Source: Rubrobacter aplysinae (GTDB lineage Bacteria > Actinomycetota > Rubrobacteria > Rubrobacterales > Rubrobacteraceae). From it: a stretch of DNA of 64,000 bases. The notes under the pieces are model-generated. The model saw nothing but the letters and a program-made list of their open reading frames with translations. It had not been told where the DNA came from and made no database searches. Position 1 is the stretch's first letter. Each line of letters starts with the position of its first letter. Of this stretch, positions 1-44,516 are shown in pieces. Position numbers and translations under genes: made by a program. The DNA is taken from NCBI RefSeq assembly GCF_001029505.1, contig NZ_LEKH01000002.1, positions 124,001-188,000 on the forward strand, given 5' to 3'.

Positions 1-904
1 CGTACTGGAGCTTGCCCGGATGGCGGTGTACGTGGCCGTAGAAGGACTCCTCGCGGTTGTAGACCAGCTTCACCGGCCGCTCGGTGTGCAGCGCCAGTAG
101 ACAGGCGTGGGCCTGCATCGAGAGGTCCTCGCGGCCGCCGAAGGCGCCGCCCACGCCGGAGAGCGTGAGCCGGACCTCATCCGGCGAGAGGCCGAGGCTC
201 TCGGCGAGCTGGTCTCGGTCTATGTGCAGCCACTGCGTCGAGATGTACAGGTCCACGCCCCCGGCTCCGTCCGGGACGGCCAGGCCGGACTCGGGTCCGA
301 GGAATGCCTGATCCTGCATCCCCACCTCGTACTCGCCGGTAACCACCACGTCGGCCTCAGCAGACTCCACGTCGCCGTGCACCTGGTGGATGTGACGCAG
401 CACGTTGCCCGAAGGATGCAGGCTCGGGGCAGCCTCCTGCATGGCCTCCTCTGCGTCGGCCAGGGGCTCCAGCACCTCGTAGTCCACCCGTATCTTGTCT
501 GCGGCGCGGCGGGCGGTCTCGGGGTGATCTGCGGCCACTATGGCGACCGCCTCGCCCTGATAACGGATCCTCTCCCACGCCAGGACCGGCTGGTCGGGCA
601 CCTCCATCCCGTATACCTTGCGGCCCGGCACGTCCTCGTGGGTGAGCACCGCGTACACCCCCGGCACCGACTCGGCCTCTGTGGTGTCGATGGACCAGAT
701 GTTTGCGTGCGGGTGCAGGCTGCGCAGCGTCGCGCCCCAGAGCATGCCGTCCATCCACAAATCCGAGGAGTACTCGAAGCTGCCCGTGACCTTCGGCGTC
801 CCATCCGGGCGGGTAGTGGACTCACCCACCCGGCCGGGCCTGGAGGTCGGAGAGCCGGGTAACTCCCGCGTCGGGGTCTGCGGCACGGTTTCCGACTGGA
901 TCAT
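1..904 (-). CDS. Xanthine dehydrogenase-type molybdopterin-binding subunit, 5' part only
   Basis: The reading frame stays open to the left edge, so only the N-terminal ~300 residues are present. The protein resembles the large molybdenum-cofactor subunit of xanthine dehydrogenase/aldehyde oxidase enzymes: an early VTGSFEYSSDL-type a/b hammerhead region, then QDQAFLGPES and GVGGAFGGRED, the family's Moco-pocket motifs. It would hydroxylate a purine or aldehyde together with FeS and FAD subunits, which would lie outside the window. Two ATGs follow an AGGAGG: one directly abuts it (910), the other is 6 nt away (904). The latter has normal spacing and is chosen. The exact substrate cannot be told from this fragment. 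MoeA at 28 kb would supply cofactor. Confidence 0.85.
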   Translation of the reverse strand, partial: MIQSETVPQTPTRELPGSPTSRPGRVGESTTRPDGTPKVTGSFEYSSDLWMDGMLWGATLRSLHPHANIWSIDTTEAESVPGVYAVLTHEDVPGRKVYGMEVPDQPVLAWERIRYQGEAVAIVAADHPETARRAADKIRVDYEVLEPLADAEEAMQEAAPSLHPSGNVLRHIHQVHGDVESAEADVVVTGEYEVGMQDQAFLGPESGLAVPDGAGGVDLYISTQWLHIDRDQLAESLGLSPDEVRLTLSGVGGAFGGREDLSMQAHACLLALHTERPVKLVYNREESFYGHVHRHPGKLQY

Positions 905-910
905 AGGCAT

Positions 911-1594
911 CCTCCTCTAATCCCTATGCGAACTCCGACTCCGGGGCGCGAAAAGCGTGGCGCTTTACGGGCTCGTAACCACCCCGGACGCGCTCCAAGA
1001 CACGAGACGACCGGATACATACCCGACCGCCTTATACCGGTCACGGGATACGGGTCTCCCACTACTTTTACCTCCCTCCGCGCCCCACGACGCCGTAACG
1101 GGAGATCAGGCTAGGTGTTCGCTGGCGACGCGCCTTTTCCCTCTCCCCAAACGGGAGAAACGGCTAGGTGATCATCCGCAACGCGCCTTTTCCCTCTCCC
1201 TACATTCCGCTTGACGGACCTGTAGTTTTGTAGCATGGAGTATATGTATCCGAAAGCCGGTGTCAAGCCGCCCGCGACTTCGCCTGGGTAAAATGGGCCG
1301 TACCGCGGGGCCCAAGGAAGACCGGGAGCCGCCGGTACACGTCACGCCAATCAGGCGGACGATACGGAGCCCCCGCTGGACTCGCCACTCTATCTCCCCA
1401 AGAAACGTCCGGACGCGTGGCGTCGGGTCCCCCACGGCTGGCATATTGCCGAGCCGCGCTTTTGCCCGCCTTTACCCCTGTAGGATGGAGCGCTAGCCGC
1501 TCTACCCGCTTTTCGGCGGCCGGCGGAGCACTCCTCCGCGCACGTTACACGTTATTATCACAATGAGTCATGCTGTATGGTGCTGGTTCCGGCG
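911..1594. other. Long stretch without a convincing gene
   Basis: Between the molybdenum hydroxylase start and the rhodanese stop I find no reading frame with a ribosome binding site or a recognisable protein. Several 60-90 codon open frames exist on both strands but have Arg/Pro-rich translations typical of GC-rich non-coding frames. The only structure seen is the 53-bp tandem repeat reported separately. Promoters for the leftward hydroxylase gene should lie in its left part, but I could not pick one out. Confidence 0.5.
1098..1203. repeat. Two-copy 53-bp tandem repeat
   Basis: Two adjoining units (1098-1150 and 1151-1203) begin ACGGGAGA, share GGCTAGGTG in the middle and end with a common 20-base block ACGCGCCTTTTCCCTCTCCC (GACGCG in copy one). 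About ten positions differ, mainly in the stretch after GGCTAGGTG. Each unit has GGGAG near its start and CTCCC near its end, so each could fold back on itself. It lies in the non-coding stretch upstream of the hydroxylase gene; function unknown. Confidence 0.8.
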
Positions 1595-1957
1595 CTAGCT
1601 CTCTACCTCGTATCCCTGCTCGCGCCAGCCGTTTATGCCGCCCTGCATGTTTGCGACGTTCGTGTAACCCATCTCCGTGAGGGTGCTGGCGGCCAGGGCT
1701 CCACGGCCTCCCAGGGCACAGTGGGTTACCATACGCCGGTTCTTGTCCGGGAGGTCTGTAGATGCCCGGTACTCCAGCAGGCCCCGCGGCACGTGGATCG
1801 CGCCCGGCAGATGCCCCTCGTCGTACTCGGCGGGCTCGCGCACGTCTACTATCGTGATCTCCTCGCCGGAGTCCAGGGCCCGCTTTACCTCGTCCACGTC
1901 GGTCTGACCGGCATTCTCGCGGGCTTCGGCCACCAGGTCCTCGTAGGTCTTCGCCAA
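1595..1957 (-). CDS. Single-domain rhodanese-like sulfurtransferase
   Basis: A 120-residue protein with one rhodanese domain. The persulfide-carrying loop is C80-A-L-G-G-R, matching the CxxGxR active-site pattern, preceded by the VDVREPAEYDEGHLPGA signature (about residues 38-53). It should move sulfane sulfur to cyanide or another acceptor in the cytoplasm. The start is a TTG six bases after AGGAGG; longer in-frame starts upstream lack a ribosome binding site. It is divergent from the flavin disulfide reductase gene, with about 130 bp between the two starts, so the two may share a promoter region. Confidence 0.88.
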   Translation of the reverse strand: MAKTYEDLVAEARENAGQTDVDEVKRALDSGEEITIVDVREPAEYDEGHLPGAIHVPRGLLEYRASTDLPDKNRRMVTHCALGGRGALAASTLTEMGYTNVANMQGGINGWREQGYEVES

Positions 1958-2066
1958 CTCTATCCTCCTGTATGGGTGCGTCGGTACCCGGACATGGTAG
2001 CACCGCGGGTAAACTGGACCTGGTAGAGATCTATCGGAGTAGTAGGAGCGATCGAGGAGGCGGCGG

Positions 2067-2093
2067 ATGCCGGAGCGGGTTGAAGATGAGTGA
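2067..2093 (+). promoter_or_regulatory. Possible 8-codon leader peptide overlapping the next start
   Basis: An AGGAGG at 2055-2060, six bases before ATG, opens an eight-codon frame (MPERVEDE) whose stop overlaps the start of the disulfide reductase (ATGAGTGA). The reductase start itself has no good ribosome binding site at normal distance. Translation of the short frame could therefore deliver ribosomes to the main gene by termination-reinitiation. An in-frame TTG at 2080 is another possible start for the main gene. Confidence 0.35.
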
Positions 2094-3531
2094 TTACGAT
2101 CTCCTGGTGGTAGGCGGCGGCACGGCGGGACTCGTGGCCGCAGCGGGCGGGGCCTCGCTGGGGGCCAGGGTCGCCCTCGTGGAGCGGGACAGGCTTGGCG
2201 GCGACTGCCTGTATCGCGGCTGCGTGCCGACAAAGGCACTGGTAAAGAGCGCGAAGGTCGCAAGCCTCGCCCGCCGGGCAGAGGAGTTCGGCCTGCGCCC
2301 GATGGACGTGGAGGTGGACTTTCCGGCGGTGATGCGCCGGATGCGCTCCGTTATACAGAAGGCTGGCGAGCCAGACGATCCGGAACGCTTCCGCGAGCTC
2401 GGCGTCGAGCTGTACCTCGGGGAAGAGGCGCGCTTCACCGGCCCCAAGGAGCTCGCGGTCGGCGGGCGGCGTCTTGGCGGGCGCGGCGTCGTGCTCGCTA
2501 CGGGCTCCCACGCAAAAGCCCCGCCCGTCGAGGGCCTCGCCGAGGCCGGATACCTGGACAACGAAAGGCTCCTCGCGCTGGAACGAATGCCCGGCTCGAT
2601 GGTGATTATAGGGTCCGGGCCGATAGGCTGCGAGTTCGCCCAGATGTTCGCCCGCTTCGGCTGCCGGGTCGAGCTCGTGTCATCTAGCCCCGAGCCGCTC
2701 CCGAAGGAGGAGCCCGAGGTCTCGGCGACGCTGCGGCGTTCGCTGGAGAAGGATGGCGTCCGCTTCCACGGCGGCTACCGCGCGGAGTCCGTGCGCGTGG
2801 AGGGGGGCGAGAAGGTCGTCACCGCCAGGGGTAAGGACGGGAGCACCGCAGGCAAAATCGAGGCGCGGGGAGAGGAGATCCTGGTCTCAGCCGGGCGCGC
2901 GCCCACGGTGGACGGCCTCGGCCTGGAGAACGCCGGGGTAGAGGTCGGAGAGCGGGGCGTCACGGTGGATGAGCACCTGATGACCACGGCGGAGGGCGTG
3001 TACGCGACCGGGGACGTAACCGGCAGGATGCTCTTTACCCACGCCGCCGAGCACCAGAGCCGGACCGTGATCTCCAACGCCCTGTTCCCCGTGAAGAGGA
3101 AGATAGACCACTCCGCCGTGCCCTGGACCACCTTCACCGACCCCGAGGTCGCCCGCGTCGGCCTGACAGAGAGCGAGGCCCGCGAGAAACACGGCCACGC
3201 CGAGTCCTTCCGCCACGACTTCGCTGAGCTCGACCGCGCCCTCTGCGACGGCGAGACAGAAGGGTTCGCCAAGCTCGTTACCGGGCGGGGCGGCAGGCTG
3301 CTCGGGGCGCACATTATCGGGCCGGACTCCGGTAACTACGTGGCCGAGTCCGTGCTCGCACTCCGCAAAGGGATGAAGATCGGAGATCTCTCCCAGACCG
3401 TACACGTGTACCCGACGCTGGCCGAGATCACCAAGAAGGCCGCGGATAACTACTACCGCGAGAAGTTCTTTACCAGACGCAACCAAAAAATACTGGGCGC
3501 ACTCTTCTCTCTGCGGCGCAGGCTCTTCTAG
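2086..3531 (+). CDS. FAD-dependent pyridine nucleotide-disulfide oxidoreductase (MerA/Lpd-like)
   Basis: A 481-residue class I flavoprotein disulfide reductase. Visible parts: N-terminal FAD-binding VVGGGTAG; redox disulfide GGDCLYRGCVPTK; second nucleotide-binding GSGPIGCEFA; YATGDVTG; and the C-terminal HVYPTLAE segment with the His-Glu pair that acts as base in this family. The CLYRGC loop and domain order match the mercuric reductase/dihydrolipoamide dehydrogenase branch. There is no N-terminal HMA domain and no C-terminal cysteine pair as in true MerA, and no mer or lipoyl genes nearby, so the substrate is unknown. The neighbouring rhodanese hints at a thiol or sulfur role. Confidence 0.85.
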   Translation: MSDYDLLVVGGGTAGLVAAAGGASLGARVALVERDRLGGDCLYRGCVPTKALVKSAKVASLARRAEEFGLRPMDVEVDFPAVMRRMRSVIQKAGEPDDPERFRELGVELYLGEEARFTGPKELAVGGRRLGGRGVVLATGSHAKAPPVEGLAEAGYLDNERLLALERMPGSMVIIGSGPIGCEFAQMFARFGCRVELVSSSPEPLPKEEPEVSATLRRSLEKDGVRFHGGYRAESVRVEGGEKVVTARGKDGSTAGKIEARGEEILVSAGRAPTVDGLGLENAGVEVGERGVTVDEHLMTTAEGVYATGDVTGRMLFTHAAEHQSRTVISNALFPVKRKIDHSAVPWTTFTDPEVARVGLTESEAREKHGHAESFRHDFAELDRALCDGETEGFAKLVTGRGGRLLGAHIIGPDSGNYVAESVLALRKGMKIGDLSQTVHVYPTLAEITKKAADNYYREKFFTRRNQKILGALFSLRRRLF

Positions 3532-14272: not shown

Positions 14273-15790
14273 CTACGAGGAGCCGCGCCGGGAGTGCCCG
14301 CGCAGGGCGGCGATATCCGTCATCTGCGCCTCTACCCAGTCGTCCACGGTGTTGCGCTCGACGGAGGCCCGCAGGGATTGGGCGCGGCTGCGGCGTTCGA
14401 CCGGGTCCATGATGAGCGCGCGGTGGAGGGCGTCGGCCTGCTCGTCGAGGTCGAAAGGGTTGACGGTCAGGGCGTGCTCGCCGAGCTCTTCGTGGGCCCC
14501 GGCGGTCTCGGAGAGAACGAGCACCCCGTCGCGGCGGTTGACCACGGCGGCCTCCTTGGCGACGAGGTTCATGCCGTCCCGGACGGCGTTCACGAGCAGG
14601 GCGTCGTAGTTCTTGTAGGCGGCGACCGAGCGGAGGAAGTTGTCTTCCAGGGAGAGGATCACCGGCTCCCACGAGGGGGTGCGGTGTGCGCCGTTGATCT
14701 CCTCGACCGCCTGCCGCACGGCGTCGGAGTAGCGGGCGTACTCGGTGATGGAGCCGCGAGAGGGCTGTAGCTGGGCCAGGAAGGTTACGCGCTCTCTCAT
14801 GTGCGGGTACCGCTCCAGCATGCGGCCGTAGGCAAGAAAGCCCCGCAGGACGTTCTTGGAAAGGTCGAGCCGGTCTACGCGCAAGAGGAGGCTGCCCGGC
14901 AGATTTTGCACGTACTCCTCCTCAGCGAGCACGGCCTCGCTCTCGGCCAGCCCGGAGAACTCCGCGGGGTCTATGGAGATCGGGTACGCCCGCACCCGGG
15001 TCTCGCGTCCCCGGTACTGTATTCCGCGCCCTTCGAGATCCACCTCCGCGCCGAGAACCTCGGAGACGGTGTCCAGAAAGCAGCGGGCGTAGCCCTCGGT
15101 GTGGAAGGCGAGAACGTCGCACTGCAGGAGGCTCTCCAGGATGCCCTCGCGCATCCCCTGCGGCAGGATGCGCCAGTAGCCGGGGTCGGGCCAGGGTATG
15201 TGCACGAACAGGGAGACGAACGCGCCCTCGGCGGCCGTGCCACGCAGGCCCTCACGCAAGGAGCCGGGTACCATGTAGAGCTGGTAGTCGTGGAGCAGAA
15301 CCACGGGCTCCTCGCCACTCTCAGCAGCCCGCACGGCGGCATCGGCGGCGGCGCGGGCGAAGTTCCGGTTGACCTCCTCGTAGCCCTCCCACGCCCGGCG
15401 CGTGTCGTCGCCGAGCCGCGGGGAGTACGGCAGATCGTAGATGCCGTGCTGCACGAACCACAGTAGGGGGTTCGCGACGTGGTTGTACATTAGCTCGTAT
15501 GCCTCGGGGTCGTGCTCGACGAGGTCGACCGTCAGATCCCCGATCTCCACCGGTTCCTCTTCGCGGGCCACAACGACGTCCTCGCCGCTGGTGGCCGAGG
15601 CGATCCAGACCGCATCCCGGTTGCGGGCCATGGCGTTCAGCGCGGTCACGAGACCGCCCGCGCCCCGGGAGTACGTGCGCCCGCCTCCCTCCTCGCGCGA
15701 GAAGGTCACTGGCCCCCGGTTGGAGACGATGATGAAGCGGTCCTGCGGCCCCCGCGCCGGGTCGCCGCGTGCGGTCCCTGTCTCGGGCAT
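14273..15790 (-). CDS. otsA: Trehalose-6-phosphate synthase (GT20)
   Basis: 505 residues of the GT20 family, joining UDP- or GDP-glucose to glucose 6-phosphate to give trehalose 6-phosphate. Seen: IIVSNRGPV near the N-terminus, the acceptor-site WFVQHGIYDLPY, HDYQLYMVPGSLR, LFVHIPWPDPGYWRILP, VDRLDLSKNV (sugar-nucleotide site) and VRDGMNLVAKE with LSETAGA. ATG start after GGAGACGTC. It lies 104 bases downstream of treT on the same strand, so this cell could make trehalose by two routes from one locus. No OtsB phosphatase is visible here. Confidence 0.93.
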   Translation of the reverse strand: MPETGTARGDPARGPQDRFIIVSNRGPVTFSREEGGGRTYSRGAGGLVTALNAMARNRDAVWIASATSGEDVVVAREEEPVEIGDLTVDLVEHDPEAYELMYNHVANPLLWFVQHGIYDLPYSPRLGDDTRRAWEGYEEVNRNFARAAADAAVRAAESGEEPVVLLHDYQLYMVPGSLREGLRGTAAEGAFVSLFVHIPWPDPGYWRILPQGMREGILESLLQCDVLAFHTEGYARCFLDTVSEVLGAEVDLEGRGIQYRGRETRVRAYPISIDPAEFSGLAESEAVLAEEEYVQNLPGSLLLRVDRLDLSKNVLRGFLAYGRMLERYPHMRERVTFLAQLQPSRGSITEYARYSDAVRQAVEEINGAHRTPSWEPVILSLEDNFLRSVAAYKNYDALLVNAVRDGMNLVAKEAAVVNRRDGVLVLSETAGAHEELGEHALTVNPFDLDEQADALHRALIMDPVERRSRAQSLRASVERNTVDDWVEAQMTDIAALRGHSRRGSS

Positions 15791-37164: not shown

Positions 37165-37923
37165 CTAGCCCCGGGACCGCACCCTGCCCGCCACCGAGGA
37201 GAAGGCGGCGGCCTCCAGCCCGTCGTCGAGCGGTTCGATCTCACCGTCGTACCCGGCGTGACGCAGGGCCTCCTGTATGAGCCGGTCGGTCAGCCAAGGG
37301 TTCTTCGGGAGCAGCGAGCCGTGCATGTAGGTGCCGTAGGCGTTGTTGCGCCGCGCCCCCTCGGTGCCGTCCTGCCCGTTGTTTCCATGTCCCGCGACGA
37401 CGCGCCCCAGCGGCTCCGCGCCGTCCAGGATAGTGCGACCGCCGTGGTTCTCGAAGCCGACAACCTCCTGTTCCGGCCCTCCCTCCGGGTCCGGGACGCG
37501 CATCAGCACGTTGCCTATGAGACGCTCCTCGCCGTCGGCGGCGGGCTCGGTGTGGAGGTCCATGATCCCGAGCCCCGGCAGCTTCTCACCGCCGGCGGTC
37601 TCGTAATAGTGCCCCATGAGCTGGTAGCCGCCACACACACCGAGCACCACCCCGCCGTCGTCTGCGATGGCCCGCAGGTCCGCGCCCTTCGTGCCCGAGA
37701 GGTCGTCGGCCAGCAGCGCCTGTTCCCGGTCCTGGCCACCGCCGAACAGGAAGATGTCGCAGCCGGTGGGGCGAATGGATTCCCCGATGTTCACGTCCAC
37801 CACATCAACATCCATACCGCGCCACTCGCAGCGTTTTCTGAGTGAGATCACATTCCCCCGGTCCCCGTACATGTTCATCATGTCCGCGTACAGGTGGTGG
37901 ATGGTGAGCTTGTCTGGCTGCAA
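37165..37923 (-). CDS. gatD: Lipid II isoglutaminyl synthase, glutaminase subunit
   Basis: 252 residues. GatD supplies ammonia to MurT for amidation of D-Glu in lipid II. Nucleophile Cys97 lies in LGVCGGYQLMG; GFENHGGRT and NAYGTYMHGSLLPKNP supply the His. TTG start seven bases after GAAGGGAG. Its normal partner murT is 5 kb away (43077-44516) on the same strand. Between them are phoD, a gatD/murT scar and a foreign gene, so the pair are no longer one transcription unit. Confidence 0.93.
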   Translation of the reverse strand: MQPDKLTIHHLYADMMNMYGDRGNVISLRKRCEWRGMDVDVVDVNIGESIRPTGCDIFLFGGGQDREQALLADDLSGTKGADLRAIADDGGVVLGVCGGYQLMGHYYETAGGEKLPGLGIMDLHTEPAADGEERLIGNVLMRVPDPEGGPEQEVVGFENHGGRTILDGAEPLGRVVAGHGNNGQDGTEGARRNNAYGTYMHGSLLPKNPWLTDRLIQEALRHAGYDGEIEPLDDGLEAAAFSSVAGRVRSRG

Positions 37924-38202: not shown

Positions 38203-39792
38203 TTGAGTTATAGACGTTACAGACGTTTCACCGCGAGGGGTGGCGCGGCTGCGCCCGTCTCCGGCGGACCGCTTGCCGGGGAAGCGGGAGAGACTGCTTC
38301 CCGGCCCCGATTCTCCGGATATCCGTTCAGCCTGGGGGTCGCCTCCGGGGACCCGGCGCCGGACGGCGTGGTGATCTGGACCAGGCTCGCCCCGGACCCG
38401 CTCGCGGCGGATGGGCGCGGCGGGATGCAGAGCGAGAGGGACAAGAACGTGCCGGTGCGGTGGCAGGTCGCCGAGGATGCGGGCTTCCGCCGCGTGGTCG
38501 GTCACGGCACGGAGCCCGCCCGGCCCGGGCTCGCCCACTCCGTACACGTCGAGGTGGAGGGCCTGAGACCCGGCAGAGAGTACTTCTACAGGTTCAAGGT
38601 CGGCTCCGAGACGAGCCCGGTCGGCAGGACAAAGACGGCCCCCGCGCCCGGGACCGCTCTAAACGAGATGTCTTTCGCGCTGTGTAGCTGCGCCAACTAC
38701 CCTAGCGGCTACTTCACCGCCTACCGTTACATGGCGGAGGAGGACCTGGATCTCGTATTCGGGGTCGGAGACTATATCTACGAGGGCAAGGGCCCCCGCA
38801 ACCCGATCCGGGGCCGGGAGCACCTCCCGCACAAGGAGGCCGTCTCGCTCGACGAGTACCGGCTGCGCTACGCACAGTACAAGTCCGACGAGGACCTCAA
38901 GGCCGCACACGCCGCCCACCCCTGGGCGCTGGTCCTCGACGACCACGAGCTGGACAACAACTGGGCCGGAGACGTACCCGTGGAGAGGTCCGGTATCCGG
39001 GGAGCAGCATTCATGGAGCGGCGCGCCGCCGCCTTCCAGGCCTACTACGAGCACACGCCCCTGCGGAGCACCTCGATGCCCCGGGGCTCGGACATGCGGC
39101 TCTATCGGCGGTTTACGTACGGGGACCTCGCCGAGTTCAACGTCCTCGACACCCGCCAGTACCGCTCGGATCAGGCCGCTGGAGACTTCGCGAAGCCGCC
39201 TCATCCGGCCCAGTCCGACCCGGAGCGCACCATCACCGGCGACGAGCAGGAGCGGTGGCTGCTGGATGGCCTGTCGCGCTCGCGGACGCGCTGGAACGCC
39301 CTGGTCCAGCAGGTCTTCTTTGCAAAGAGGGATATGGCCCCCGACGCCGGAGAGCTCTACAGCATGGACGCCTGGGACGGCTACCTGGCCTCCAGGGACC
39401 GGATCCTGCGCTTCCTCGAGGAGAGAGAGGTCCCGAACCCGGTGGTCCTGAGCGGCGACGTACACGACAACTGGGCGAACGACCTGCTCTCCGACTTCGA
39501 CGACCCCGGCTCGCGCATCGTCGGCTCCGAGTTCGTCGGGACCTCCATAACCAGCTTCGGAGACGGCTCCGAGCACCGCAAGAACACCGGTAAGATCCTG
39601 GCGAAGAACCCGCACCTGAAGTTCTACAACAACCGGCGCGGCTACCTCCGCTGCCGGCTAACGCCCGATGAGTGGCGCACGGACTTCCGGGTGCTGCAGT
39701 ACGTCACACGGCCCGGGTCCCCGATCTCGACCCGGGCAACGTTCGTAACCCGAAATGGTAGCCCGGGCGTGCATAGGACCACCGAGCAGTGA
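38203..39792 (+). CDS. phoD: PhoD-like alkaline phosphatase/phosphodiesterase
   Basis: About 529 residues. PhoD N-terminal domain (FSGYPFSLGVASGDPAPDGVVIWTRLAP) and metallophosphatase core: LCSCANYPSGYF, FGVGDYIYEG, LDDHELDNNWAGD and VLSGDVHDNW. It releases phosphate from phosphodiesters outside the cell using Ca/Fe. The N-terminus RRYRRFTARGGAAAP hints at a Tat signal but the hydrophobic core is poor. The TTG start has no binding site, and a short out-of-frame MRGRLSRVLAAAG lies just upstream, so a frameshift in the signal region is possible. It lies between gatD and the gatD/murT scar on the opposite strand. Confidence 0.85.
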   Translation: MSYRRYRRFTARGGAAAPVSGGPLAGEAGETASRPRFSGYPFSLGVASGDPAPDGVVIWTRLAPDPLAADGRGGMQSERDKNVPVRWQVAEDAGFRRVVGHGTEPARPGLAHSVHVEVEGLRPGREYFYRFKVGSETSPVGRTKTAPAPGTALNEMSFALCSCANYPSGYFTAYRYMAEEDLDLVFGVGDYIYEGKGPRNPIRGREHLPHKEAVSLDEYRLRYAQYKSDEDLKAAHAAHPWALVLDDHELDNNWAGDVPVERSGIRGAAFMERRAAAFQAYYEHTPLRSTSMPRGSDMRLYRRFTYGDLAEFNVLDTRQYRSDQAAGDFAKPPHPAQSDPERTITGDEQERWLLDGLSRSRTRWNALVQQVFFAKRDMAPDAGELYSMDAWDGYLASRDRILRFLEEREVPNPVVLSGDVHDNWANDLLSDFDDPGSRIVGSEFVGTSITSFGDGSEHRKNTGKILAKNPHLKFYNNRRGYLRCRLTPDEWRTDFRVLQYVTRPGSPISTRATFVTRNGSPGVHRTTEQ

Positions 39793-39800
39793 GTGGTAAG

Positions 39801-39849
39801 CATCGCCGTGTAGCCGTGTAGGTCGGCAGGACGCACAGAGTCTCGCCGA
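39801..39849 (-). pseudogene. murT 3'-end fragment
   Basis: On the minus strand this encodes GETLCVLPTYTA, matching GETLYVLPTYTAML of the intact MurT about 30 codons from its end. About 38 of 42 aligned bases agree with 43138-43180, apart from a tandem 8-base duplication (CTACACGG) that shifts the frame. It immediately follows the gatD fragment. Confidence 0.7.
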
Positions 39850-39851
39850 GT

Positions 39852-40007
39852 CTAACGGATAAACTCCCCGATATTCACGTCCCCCACATCCACACCTATC
39901 CCGCGCCACTCGCAGCGTTTTTTCAAAGAGATCACGTTCCTACGATCCCCGTACATGTTCGCCATGTCCGCGTACAGGTGGTGGATGGTGAGTTTGTTGG
40001 ACTGCAC
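39852..40007 (-). pseudogene. gatD 5'-end fragment
   Basis: 51 codons beginning MQSNKLTIHHLYADMANMYG and ending GVDVGDVNIGEFIR, then a stop made at the junction with the murT fragment. It aligns with residues 1-51 of the intact GatD with about ten differences, and the leader (CGAAGGGAG before the start) is conserved too. The differences show the duplication is old or came from a related strain. It lacks the catalytic Cys. Confidence 0.8.
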
Positions 40008-40135
40008 GGTATGGCTCCCTTCGTGCCGCGCTCCCCACCGTGAACTGTAGTGCTCCAAGTAAGCTCCTCAGAGCGACTATAATACCTATGATAGGGAGTG
40101 TATGACACTAAGGTCAAAACATTTTAAGGTGTTAC
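40008..40135. other. Junction between the gatD fragment and the AT-rich gene
   Basis: Base composition drops from GC-rich to AT-rich here. It holds a TATAAT (40078-40083) that could be the -10 of the rightward gene, with no good -35, and CCACCGTGAACT (40035-40046), which has an imperfect inverted counterpart at 43050-43069. The insertion end is likely within 40030-40070. Confidence 0.4.
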
Positions 40136-42804
40136 GTGACAAATTTTACAAAGACAAGCGTCTACAGTAATGCACTTGTCAACAGAAGTCACGGCGTGGA
40201 CAAAGGTCAGCAAGCTGTGCTACAAGAAGCCTTGAACAAGTTTAGAGAAAGAGCGCAAACTGTAGCAGGTGATATCAACAGAAGTCTTCCAGAGTTCACA
40301 GTCCACGATATTAGTCACCTGGATGCTCTTTGGGAGATGGCAGACCTCGTAGTAGGCGATAGTCAAGACTTGACTCCTGTCGAGGCCTTTGTACTTGGCG
40401 GCGCTTTTTTGATACATGACCTTGGTATGGGTCTGGCTGCGTACCCCGGTGGTCTCGAAGAACTTCGAACAGATTATAGATGGTCAGATGCTATAGCCGC
40501 AGCTTGGCATAGTGAAAGAGGGAAACGTCCTAGTAGGAAAGAAATAGAGGAGCCCCCAGCTCAGATATTAGATAAAGCCACCGCTGAAATTTTAAGATTA
40601 CGACATGCTGAGCAAGCAGAGCACCTGGCTTTAACGTCGTGGGAAAGCGGCGGTACTGACTATCATTTGATCGAAGATCCGGAGTTAAGAGCAGAGCTAG
40701 GCCCAATTATAGGTAGAATTGCGCATAGTCATTGGTGGTCCGTCGAGGAATTAGGAAGAGAGTTTCAGACTAACCTGGGAGCTCCACCGAGATTCCCGAG
40801 AAGCTGGACAACAGACCCATTAAAGATAGCTTGTATTTTGAGAGTATCGGATGCCAGCCATATTGATGCCCGAAGGGCACCTCCTTTCTTGCGTGCTGTA
40901 CGCCAATCAGAAGGGTTTTCTGAGGAGCATTGGCATTTTCAAAGTCGTCTACATAAACCCCAATTACGAGATGATCGGTTACTTTATACAGCTAATCGTT
41001 CTTTCTCTGTACAAGAAGCAAATGCGTGGTGGTTGTGCCACGACACTCTGAGCATGGTGGATCGTGAATTGCGTCAAGTGGATGCCTTACTCGGGGATAC
41101 CAATAGACAAAGGTTACAAGCTCGTGGGATAGTTGGTATTGAGGAACCATCTCGTCTTGCTCAGCACATCCGCACTGAGCAGTGGAGCCCCGTAGATGCT
41201 CGTGTGAGAGTTGGGGATGTAGCGAGGTTAGTAACTCGTCTTGGCGGCGAAGAATTGTACGGAAACGACCGCACAGTACCGCTAAGGGAGTTAATACAAA
41301 ACGCTTGTGACGCAGTGCGGGCTCGCCGGGTACTTGAAGATAGAGCAGCAACATGGGGCGAAGTCACGGTTACATTAGAGGAAGATTCCGAAGGTACTCG
41401 TATAGACGTAGAAGACACAGGTGTCGGAATGTCCACGTCCATGCTGACAGATGCACTCCTCAATTTCGGCACAAGTTTCTGGGACTCCGAATCTATGAGG
41501 CTAGAGTTTCCCGGTCTTCTAGCGAGCGGTTTTAAGCCTACTGGTAAATATGGAATCGGCTTTTTCTCTGTCTTTATGTGGGGCCAGAGGGTGCAGGTCA
41601 TAACTAGACAACCCGAACTGGCTCAAAGCGACACTTTGGTACTTGAGTTTCAAAACGGTCTAGATACTAGGCCAATAGTGCGCCGAGCGTCGCCAAGAGA
41701 AGTATTGCGAGATGGGGGAACCTGCGTACGCGTTTGGCTACATGAAAGTCCACAGGAGCCGAGAGGCCTCTTATACAGCGAACCAGAAGAAGGTACCCTT
41801 ACATTGGAGCAAGTGTGCACTTCACTATGTCCATCGATTGATGTCGACCTCTACACTAGCGAATCTGGGGGGCTCGTAAGGTGGCAGTCCGCGCACAAGA
41901 CTGGAAGACTATGGAGGGCGAAGACCTTCTTCGGCGCCTCGGCGGACCTCAGGCTGAAGACACCCGTGCTGCAACCGATCACGAAGGCGGGTTGCATTTG
42001 TCTTCGTTAGGACAGCACATACGTCCTCTAGAGGATGAGGAGGGAAACCTAGTGGGACGCATGTGCATAGCTCTTCCTCGGACTTCCTTTCACGAAAGAA
42101 GAGGCGGCAATTTTCAAGAACTCAGCGCTATCACGATAGGTGGGTTCAAAACTTCTAGTATCGGAGGCACTGGAGGTATAATCACAGGGGAATCTAAGAG
42201 AGCGTCACGGGACGTTGCTACTCCCAGTGTACGAAGCAAGGCATTGCAAGGATGGGCTTCTGAACAGGCTCAGTTACTAAGTCTGCTCTCTATAGATAAA
42301 GCGCTACAGGTAGATCTCGCGCAGATGGTTGCCCTATTTGGCGGTGATACAGGAAACCTGGCTGTAGCGAGGACCTCAACTGGATGGAAGACCTACAGTG
42401 AGTTATACGAGTGGAGTGGCAAATTTAGCTCTGTAATACTCGTGGACAGCATCTGGCTTAGGAAAAGGCAAGGCACTGAGTTGTTAAGCAATGTAATAGA
42501 AGTAGAAAGTGGTATACCTGGACTGACAGGATCCGTCGTTAGTGGAGCTTCCAGAGACACTTTAGAGTGGTTATCAGACGATGAGAATGTTGTTACTGGA
42601 TATCCGTTACGGGAGAAGTCGCTACAGGACTTAGCTATTAAAGCCGTTGCCTCATCTTGGGGAGTCGACACAACAAGCTTGATGCAGAAACCTGAAGAAG
42701 GCGCGCAACCCACACCAAGAACAAAAGATGTAACAGTAGCCTATAAAAACTCAGAGCCTATTGTAGAAGATGCGGTGATGTTAAATAAACCGCAGCAGTC
42801 GTGA
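40136..42804 (+). pseudogene. HD domain-Hsp90-type ATPase fusion, interrupted by a -1 frameshift
   Basis: The first frame (to 42010, 624 codons) has an HD hydrolase-like domain: HDISHLDALWEMAD, GGAFLIHDLGM, IAHSHWW and LRVSDASHID. It then has an Hsp90-type GHKL ATPase: LRELIQNACDAVRAR (Glu and Asn), VEDTGVGMS, LNFGTSFW and GKYGIGFFSVFM. Around a GGGGGG run (41867-41872) meaningful coding moves to the -1 frame, which continues AVRAQDWKTMEGEDLLRRLGG to 42804. The joined product would be about 889 residues. GTG start after AAGGTG. Codons such as TTA and AGA are frequent, unlike all neighbours: a transferred gene. It could be a defence or chaperone-like factor; it may be broken, or translated by frameshifting. 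Confidence 0.75.
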
Positions 42805-43076: not shown

Positions 43077-44516
43077 CTAATCCTCCCAGAACGGGTGGGT
43101 GTAGCCGAGCTCGCTCAATGTCTGCCGGATCTCCAGCATCGCCGTGTAGGTCGGCAGCACGTATAGTGTCTCGCCGGGCGGGGTAGCCTGTATCGCCTGC
43201 TTTATGGCCTGCTTGCGGTCCTCGATCACCTCTCCGACCGGCAAGTCCGCGTACTTGAGGCGTACGGCCATGTCTCCGGCGCGGATGCCGCTGACGCTGA
43301 ACGGCCTGCCGTCTTCGGGGCGGGCCTCGGATAGCATCTCGAAGTCCACGTCCCACAGCCAGGAGACGTCGCGGCCGTCGGCGTCGCGGTCGTTTATGGC
43401 GATCAGGACGTTCTCTGCTCCGGCCGTCTCGGAGGTCGCGGCGACGAAGGTACGCAGGATCTCGTTGAAGCCGACCGGGTTCTTTATCAAGAGTAGAAAC
43501 ACCTCCCGGTCTCCGGCCTGTATCCGCTCGACCCTGCCGAATGCGCCGCCGAAGCCCTCTATACCCCGCGCTATCTCCTCTACTCCGACGCCCGACTCTC
43601 CGGCGACGGCGGCGGCCGCCAGCGCGTTGTACACGTTGTACAGTCCCGGCAGATCCAGGCGAATATCGCGGCTGCCGGCCGGGGTCTCTAGCAGGAAGTC
43701 CGTGCCGCGCGGGCCGTCCATCTTTACTTTCGAGGCGCGGTACGAGAGGCCGGGGCGGTCGAAGTCGCAGTTCTGGCAGCGGTACGTCCCTACGTGGCCC
43801 ATGTACACGAGTTCGTAGTCGAGCGGCGTGCCGCACACGGGACAGTCCTTTGAGTCGGCGACGTGCTGGAGCTCTCCGGTGTCCAGCGCGGGCTCGTCCA
43901 CCCCGAAGTACACCGGCCGCGCCCGGCCCGACCGGCGGCCGAGGCTGGCGACGAGCGGGTCGTCGGCGTTCAGGACCACCGAGCCGCCCTCGGGCAGATC
44001 GTCGAAGGCGGAGGCTATTATCTTTCCGGTATAGGCCAGCTCACCGTAACGGTCGAGCTGGTCGCGGAAGAGGTTCAGGACCGCGAGGGTGGAGAGCCTG
44101 GCCTCGGCGGCGACGCGGGGGACGTTTGCCTCGTCTACCTCGAAGAGCCCGATCCCGGCCCGCGGACGACCCGAAATCTCCGCGTCGGCGACGACGGCGG
44201 CGGTGACGCCGGTGACGAGGTTCGCCCCGGTCGAGTTATTGACGGCCCGCAGCCCGGCGGCGTCGAAGATTCGCCCGACCATCCTGGTGGTCGTGGTCTT
44301 GCCGTTGGTGCCCGTGAGCGCGACCGCGCCGCGCGGCAGGCGCGCCGAGACTTTGGCGAGCGCCTCCGGGTCCACCCGGCGGGCTATCACACCCGGCACA
44401 GTCGAGCCGCCGCCGCGACCAGTGAGGCGGCTCGCGTACTGCGCAGCGCGGGCGGCGAGTATCGCGGCCGAGAGCCGGGCGTTTCCGAGAACTTCGAGGA
44501 GCTTGGGAGGCTTCAT
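43077..44516 (-). CDS. murT: Lipid II isoglutaminyl synthase, Mur ligase-like subunit
   Basis: 479 residues. MurT activates the D-Glu carboxyl of lipid II with ATP for amidation by ammonia from GatD. Mur ligase P-loop ALTGTNGKTTTTR, FEVDEANVPR, LNLFRDQLDRYGE, the four-Cys ribbon CPVCG...YRCQNC typical of MurT, and the C-terminal DUF1727 domain with INDRDADGRDVSWLWDVDFE. Normally followed at once by gatD; here an AT-rich insertion begins right after the stop. ATG start after GAAGCCTCC... is weakly supported, but the family length fits. Confidence 0.95.
   Translation of the reverse strand: MKPPKLLEVLGNARLSAAILAARAAQYASRLTGRGGGSTVPGVIARRVDPEALAKVSARLPRGAVALTGTNGKTTTTRMVGRIFDAAGLRAVNNSTGANLVTGVTAAVVADAEISGRPRAGIGLFEVDEANVPRVAAEARLSTLAVLNLFRDQLDRYGELAYTGKIIASAFDDLPEGGSVVLNADDPLVASLGRRSGRARPVYFGVDEPALDTGELQHVADSKDCPVCGTPLDYELVYMGHVGTYRCQNCDFDRPGLSYRASKVKMDGPRGTDFLLETPAGSRDIRLDLPGLYNVYNALAAAAVAGESGVGVEEIARGIEGFGGAFGRVERIQAGDREVFLLLIKNPVGFNEILRTFVAATSETAGAENVLIAINDRDADGRDVSWLWDVDFEMLSEARPEDGRPFSVSGIRAGDMAVRLKYADLPVGEVIEDRKQAIKQAIQATPPGETLYVLPTYTAMLEIRQTLSELGYTHPFWED

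Follow-up and report, generated by a model that had tools for sequence, protein, structure and literature searches.

The window, the whole 64,000-nucleotide stretch of DNA that was analysed, contains a gatD–murT operon that has been split, with 5153 bp now separating the two genes. In 11 of 15 related genomes the same genes lie close together, and in a genome of the same genus 5 bases separate them. From one flank to the other, the elements run in the order gatD, phoD-like gene, murT remnant, gatD remnant, HD–Hsp90 gene and murT (Table 1). The phoD-like gene, which has native GC content, matches PF09423 (E 2.4e-113, Pfam) and AlkPhosPhoDBac (E 7.8e-211, NCBIfam), and a diverged paralogue, 66–69% identical to it, is located elsewhere in the genome, on contig C18. 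The gatD remnant shows 25 coding differences from the intact gatD, 14 of them at third positions. The earlier note had described the HD–Hsp90 gene as a one-gene cargo; because the phoD-like gene and both remnants lie within the same insert, this description was abandoned. The element order, combined with the reversed order of the two remnants (39799-40028) relative to the operon, makes the locus look like the product of recombination between two alleles of the gatD–murT junction, each of which carried an insert of its own.

Table 1 Features of the split operon and its insert, and genes for a small membrane protein beside relatives. Coordinates refer to the window unless another locus is named.
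Feature	Locus	Coordinates	Strand	Evidence
gatD, left flank of the insertion	window	37165..37923	-	NCBIfam GatD
phoD-like alkaline phosphatase	window	38203..39792	+	PF09423, AlkPhosPhoDBac
Decayed murT 3' end	window	39799..39848
Decayed gatD 5' start, 83–84% identical to intact gatD	window	39856..40028
First frame: HD-CE domain, linker, Hsp90-type ATP-binding domain	window	40136..42010	+	ORF list, Pfam
HD-CE domain, residues 51-314	window	40286..41077	+	PF24391 E 1.6e-58, conservation, AlphaFold model
Hsp90/GHKL ATPase domain, residues 383-504	window	41282..41647	+	HATPase_c_3, HtpG partial match, invariant columns
Second frame: rest of Hsp90-like middle region, C-terminal domain, invariant R692	window	41860..42804	+
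G6 run at the frame switch, either a disruption or an error in the sequence	window	41867..41872	+
murT, right flank of the insertion	window	43077..44516	-	NCBIfam MurT
Small three-TM protein	L010	11008-11508	-
Small three-TM protein	L022	11227-11751	+
Small three-TM protein	L031	about 14748-15242	+
Small three-TM protein	L063	7182-7667	-
Small three-TM protein	L075	10676-11191	-

The murT–gatD junction also holds 6–9 kb of unrelated genes in two further genomes of the family (L048, 5.5-11.1 kb; L049, 3.4-12.6 kb), so the operon is easily split within the family. The junction was also considered as a defence hotspot; this was rejected, the inserts in other related genomes being unrelated and none of them obviously defensive.

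The HD–Hsp90 gene occupies 40136-42804 on the plus strand, as previously located, and its AT-rich composition and codon usage are likewise as described. Its GC content is 49% (GC3 46%) compared with 67% (GC3 83%) for the 27 other genes of the window, and per 1000 codons it contains 22.5 TTA and 29.3 AGA, against 1.1 and 4.9, respectively, in those 27 genes. By this composition, it appears to be a foreign, horizontally acquired gene. No second copy was found within its own genome, and none of 35 further genomes from the same family carries the gene. At the window locus itself, the AT-rich insert is the sole sign of mobility or defence context.

In intact relatives this is indeed a single large gene, as the earlier note had proposed, with both parts in one frame of approximately 840–925 codons that reads through the position of the G6 run; the window copy, by contrast, is split over two frames at that run. 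Homology in the first frame extends to about residue 577, matches to relatives ending at 574–582, and the remainder is an out-of-frame read. The second frame matches 21 relatives (tblastn), and where these are intact it continues the frame of the first part. Nearly all relatives are unbroken, so either the window copy became a pseudogene recently or its sequence is in error at the G6 run; full-length protein is probably no longer made from it. Among the 28 cellular relatives, five (L011, L014, L022, L026 and L029) are broken or truncated as well. Since the breaks in the other split copies (L011, L014 and L022) fall, where visible, away from the G6 position, independent decay or assembly error seems likelier than a programmed shift. 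A programmed or phase-variable frameshift, in which the G6 run would toggle between a short HD–ATPase form and the full protein, was rejected as extremely improbable: the frame change does lie inside a homopolymer, but the relatives are in one frame at this position, the other breaks lie elsewhere, and there is one genome to judge from.

The HD-CE domain matches PF24391 with 198.9 bits against a cut-off of 27, covering profile positions 1-263 of 263 (Pfam), and the same profile is matched by 22 of 22 aligned relatives. All putative HD metal ligands, namely H57, H61, H94-D95, H157, H199 and D239, are present in the window copy, and H57, D58, H61, H94, D95, H157, H199 and D239 are invariant or nearly so in the relatives, with the exception of a myxococcal pair. 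AlphaFold modelled residues 1-345 of the window copy with a pLDDT of 93. A Foldseek search of the PDB with this HD part returned no significant solved relative (best E 0.12); the top non-significant matches were cyclic-nucleotide phosphodiesterases at E 0.12, and GppA appeared lower down. In the exceptional myxococcal relatives (L021, 7974-10496; L028, 7995-10493), H57, H61 and H94 are lost and the ATPase is kept. The two share chromosomal neighbours, that is, one fixed chromosomal place, and perhaps represent a domesticated or inactive-effector version.

The ATPase domain is matched by HATPase_c_3 above its cut-off (E 2.7e-10, Pfam). With HD-CE also above cut-off, the fusion of an HD domain with an Hsp90-type ATPase holds, and neither match was lost in the profile search. 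The ATP site, previously read as complete, comprises E385, N389, DTGVGM (427-432) and GKYGIGFF (470-477) in the window copy, and the motifs LRELIQNACDAV, DTGVGM and GKYGIGFFSVFM are present there and near-invariant across 25 full-length sequences. Alignment columns E385, N389, D427, G429, G431 and the G470-F477 segment are invariant or nearly so, and R692, C-terminal of the ATPase domain, is invariant. Pfam identified no P-loop family or STAND NTPase domain in the window copy or its relatives; the ATPase is of the GHKL type.

The protein resembles Hsp90, HtpG and TRAP1 in its GHKL N-domain, which has the catalytic Glu and Asn as well as the DxGxG and lid motifs, and in its best PDB fold. Profile matches of the ATPase part in the PDB were HtpG, TRAP1 and Grp94. 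For an intact Methylobacter relative (L024 7998-10658, m22171aebe445), AlphaFold gave a model with a pLDDT of 86, whose best PDB match was to the N-plus-middle domains of TRAP1/Hsp90 (E 5e-12), with modest TM values of 0.31 for the query and 0.53 for the target. Unlike Hsp90 and HtpG, however, it carries an N-terminal HD-CE domain and a variable C-terminus, belongs to a mobile rather than a core gene, and scores far below the HtpG cut-off (57.6 bits against 455, NCBIfam), with only the N-domain aligned. The sequence likeness ends soon after the N-domain; the hhalign comparison with Hsp90 stops near residue 581, and the Hsp90 catalytic Arg is not reached by profile comparison. Among viral proteins (BFVD), the Methylobacter model matched an Hsp90 homologue, along with numerous RIIA proteins of phages. 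T4 RIIA counteracts prophage exclusion, so both sides of the phage–host conflict may, as far as the model indicates, share an Hsp90-like/RIIA fold.

Scanning bacterial and archaeal genomes identified relatives at 28 loci, with 33–55% identity and in at least nine phyla. The host groups were Chloroflexota, Acidobacteriota, Pseudomonadota, Bacillota, Bacteroidota, Fibrobacterota, Myxococcota, Armatimonadota, Actinomycetota and methanogenic archaea, and identity to the relatives in Chloroflexota, Acidobacteriota, Pseudomonadota and archaea is approximately 45–55%. A plasmid scan added one Zymomonas plasmid and one large Nonomuraea replicon. In the tree of relatives, the window copy groups with an acidobacterial and myxococcal pair with moderate support (87/80), and several phyla do not form single groups, a pattern that fits horizontal spread of these sequences without proving it. 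A DNA search of complete E. coli genomes with a provirus copy as query found no copy, and closely related phage records gave weak matches, to the ATPase part only.

A survey of neighbourhoods placed these homologues on viral contigs, in prophage slots adjacent to CI repressor genes and beside defence genes, not consistently in housekeeping operons; among the relatives surveyed, a fixed chromosomal place is limited to a single branch, in Myxococcota, whose HD site is degenerate. Relatives occur on 13 IMG/VR contigs, which are viral by selection. In four P2-like proviruses, and in two or three others, the HD-CE/Hsp90 gene lies behind the CI repressor gene. It starts 34–77 bp behind CI in L064, L066 and L067 and 924 bp behind it in L065, and CII lies on the far side of the gene in all four; P2-type replication protein A (gene A) is present in L064 and L067. 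The distance is 61–69 bp behind a CI-like repressor in the near-identical L069/L070 and in L075, and an integrase follows close downstream, within about 1 kb, in L065, L073 and L075. In a P2-related phage, the gap between cI and the integrase has been reported as a hotspot for defence genes (Rousset et al., PMC9122126).

Defence genes adjoin the gene in some loci only. Among neighbours hand-picked by eye, AbiLi/AbiLii lies directly upstream in L013, LmuA/LmuB (Lamassu) lies downstream in L012, a TIR-NLR gene is found near the relative on the Zymomonas plasmid (L030), and a neighbour in L003 matches TIR and HerA models. An unpicked tally at E 1e-15 or better yielded 111 PADLOC families among 125 neighbours compared with 6 among 53 window proteins, which is a rough sign only because the models overlap. 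PADLOC-DB 2.0.0 contains no system model that matches the gene (best TmtA, E 0.039), and a catalogued PADLOC system was ruled out for lack of such a match. A two-gene system with a constant partner was rejected as well: the gene stands alone, and its recurring neighbours are prophage genes and, in 5 of 43 loci, a small membrane protein.

The HD-CE domain is also joined to other modules. Within the phylum of the window, it scored above cut-off in 7 of 396 genomes, including a second HD-CE–ATPase fusion (L054) and a protein in which HD-CE is joined to NACHT/nSTAND3 (L058). In L057 (801-3098, minus strand), HD-CE is fused to a CARF-type domain (Cas_APE2256), and the protein is likely, judging by its domains, a ligand-controlled HD effector. 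In L055, also of this phylum, a minus-strand frame over 1-3201 joins a caspase-like peptidase to iHD-CE, a further domain arrangement of immune type. Because HD-CE is found joined to Hsp90, NACHT, CARF and caspase modules, it has the appearance of a swappable effector, and module swapping of this type is typical of immune effectors.

This class of protein had been anticipated. Nicastro, Burroughs, Iyer and Aravind, writing in NAR in 2023, reportedly named HD-CE and regarded it as a nucleotide-targeting conflict effector; they are also said to have treated HD-CE and iHD-CE as conflict effectors coupled to Hsp90-like modules, and to have described Hsp90 and Hsp70 modules as STAND analogues. The earlier suggestion that the fusion has no characterised function is therefore accurate in one respect and too broad in another: our literature search turned up no experimental study of the HD-CE/Hsp90 fusion kind itself, but the class is known, and HD-CE and iHD-CE are families in Pfam. 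The one-protein system kind is already predicted, and the window copy is a new, disrupted member of it. It agrees with the HD-CE family in its full-domain profile, HD ligands, Hsp90-like coupling and the defence or mobile context of its relatives, and differs in being disrupted. The CI-adjacent slot of P2-like prophages and the recurrent three-TM neighbour were found in this analysis.

Known defence systems offer partial parallels. Like STAND/NLR proteins (NACHT, TIR-NLR and Avs), the fusion combines an NTP-driven switch with a variable effector, likely following the same logic; unlike them, it relies on a GHKL/Hsp90 switch where they have a P-loop STAND NTPase, and sensor repeats were not found in it. 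VcSduA, a Shedu protein with a GHKL ATPase, is a single phage-tested defence protein in which the GHKL ATPase and a middle domain are thought to control the fused effector, although that effector is a PD-(D/E)xK nuclease and the domain order is reversed (PMC12137116). In Clover (CloAB), a dGTPase defence, an HD-fold nucleotide hydrolase serves as the anti-phage effector; this dNTPase–NTase pair was predicted by the 2023 paper (Nicastro et al.) and later confirmed as defence, and it differs in that CloA, a canonical dGTPase, is regulated by dTTP and p3diT and has no Hsp90 module (PMC12265719).

Considering these observations, we regard the window gene as a disrupted copy of a mobile, single-protein and probably abortive anti-phage system that couples an HD-CE effector, a putative phosphohydrolase, to an Hsp90-like clamp. 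We hold this reading to be likely, since intact copies are located in prophages and in defence islands. The defence reading rests on context and is supported by it, and the earlier proposal of a single-protein defence or stress system is likewise supported by the placement of the homologues. In the intact relatives, the Hsp90-like part would most likely act as STAND NTPases do elsewhere. A phage product or a folding disturbance, together with ATP binding, would cause the clamp to close or assemble; the closed clamp would release or activate the HD site, which would hydrolyse a pool of nucleotides or a nucleotide signal, and growth arrest or death of the infected cell would follow.

What the HD site acts upon bears on the first alternative, in which the target of HD-CE is a nucleotide used in signalling, either cyclic or an oligonucleotide, and not the bulk nucleotides, so that the protein would serve as a regulator in an immune network. 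This possibility, which overlaps with the preferred explanation, draws on the weak Foldseek likeness of the HD part to cyclic-nucleotide phosphodiesterases and GppA and on the fusion of HD-CE with a CARF-type domain in another member of the phylum; we consider it unlikely, given that the Foldseek scores are not significant and that no cyclase or partner signalling enzyme recurs beside the gene. The same likeness to phosphodiesterases, the complete Hsp90-type ATP site and the fixed chromosomal place of the myxococcal branch could point to a specialised Hsp90-type chaperone or stress enzyme whose HD domain tunes a host second messenger without any role in defence. Against this, the gene is sporadically distributed and absent from close relatives, occupies cI-adjacent prophage slots, has defence neighbours and falls far under the HtpG family cut-off, making such an enzyme distinctly unlikely; a housekeeping chaperone was rejected on spread, context and the low HtpG score. 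A selfish, addiction-type gene, a toxin carrying its own control, whose role would be to stabilise prophages and plasmids and not to oppose phage, would account for a standalone gene on a plasmid and prophages and for the several broken copies, which suggest a cost, but it is highly improbable with a large ATP-driven switch, co-location with several defence types and no recurring antitoxin-like partner, the only non-phage recurrence being the small membrane protein.

The preferred reading, that of a single-protein abortive anti-phage system, can be extended. Hsp90 is a housekeeping chaperone that helps immune receptors to fold in plants and animals. We tentatively raise the less probable idea that, in bacteria and archaea, an Hsp90-type ATP clamp is itself an innate immune switch, forming a one-protein abortive system in the prophage cI–integrase slot: a phage product might be handled as a chaperone client, closing of the clamp might fire a nucleotide-destroying HD domain, and a small membrane partner might take part in some lineages. 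If the Hsp90 engine itself is the immune switch driving the fused hydrolase, infection sensing by a GHKL clamp would become testable in one protein, for which the prophage copies are natural, compact constructs; the window copy is a disrupted example, new to its family.

The small membrane protein mentioned above has no confident Pfam match, and a scan of viral contigs with it returned just two loci, both already known. It is approximately 165–185 aa long with three predicted TM segments, contains ERYK near its N-terminus and FSWxDYRKEE in the middle of the protein, and is encoded next to the HD-CE/Hsp90 gene in unrelated hosts as well as in prophages (Table 1).
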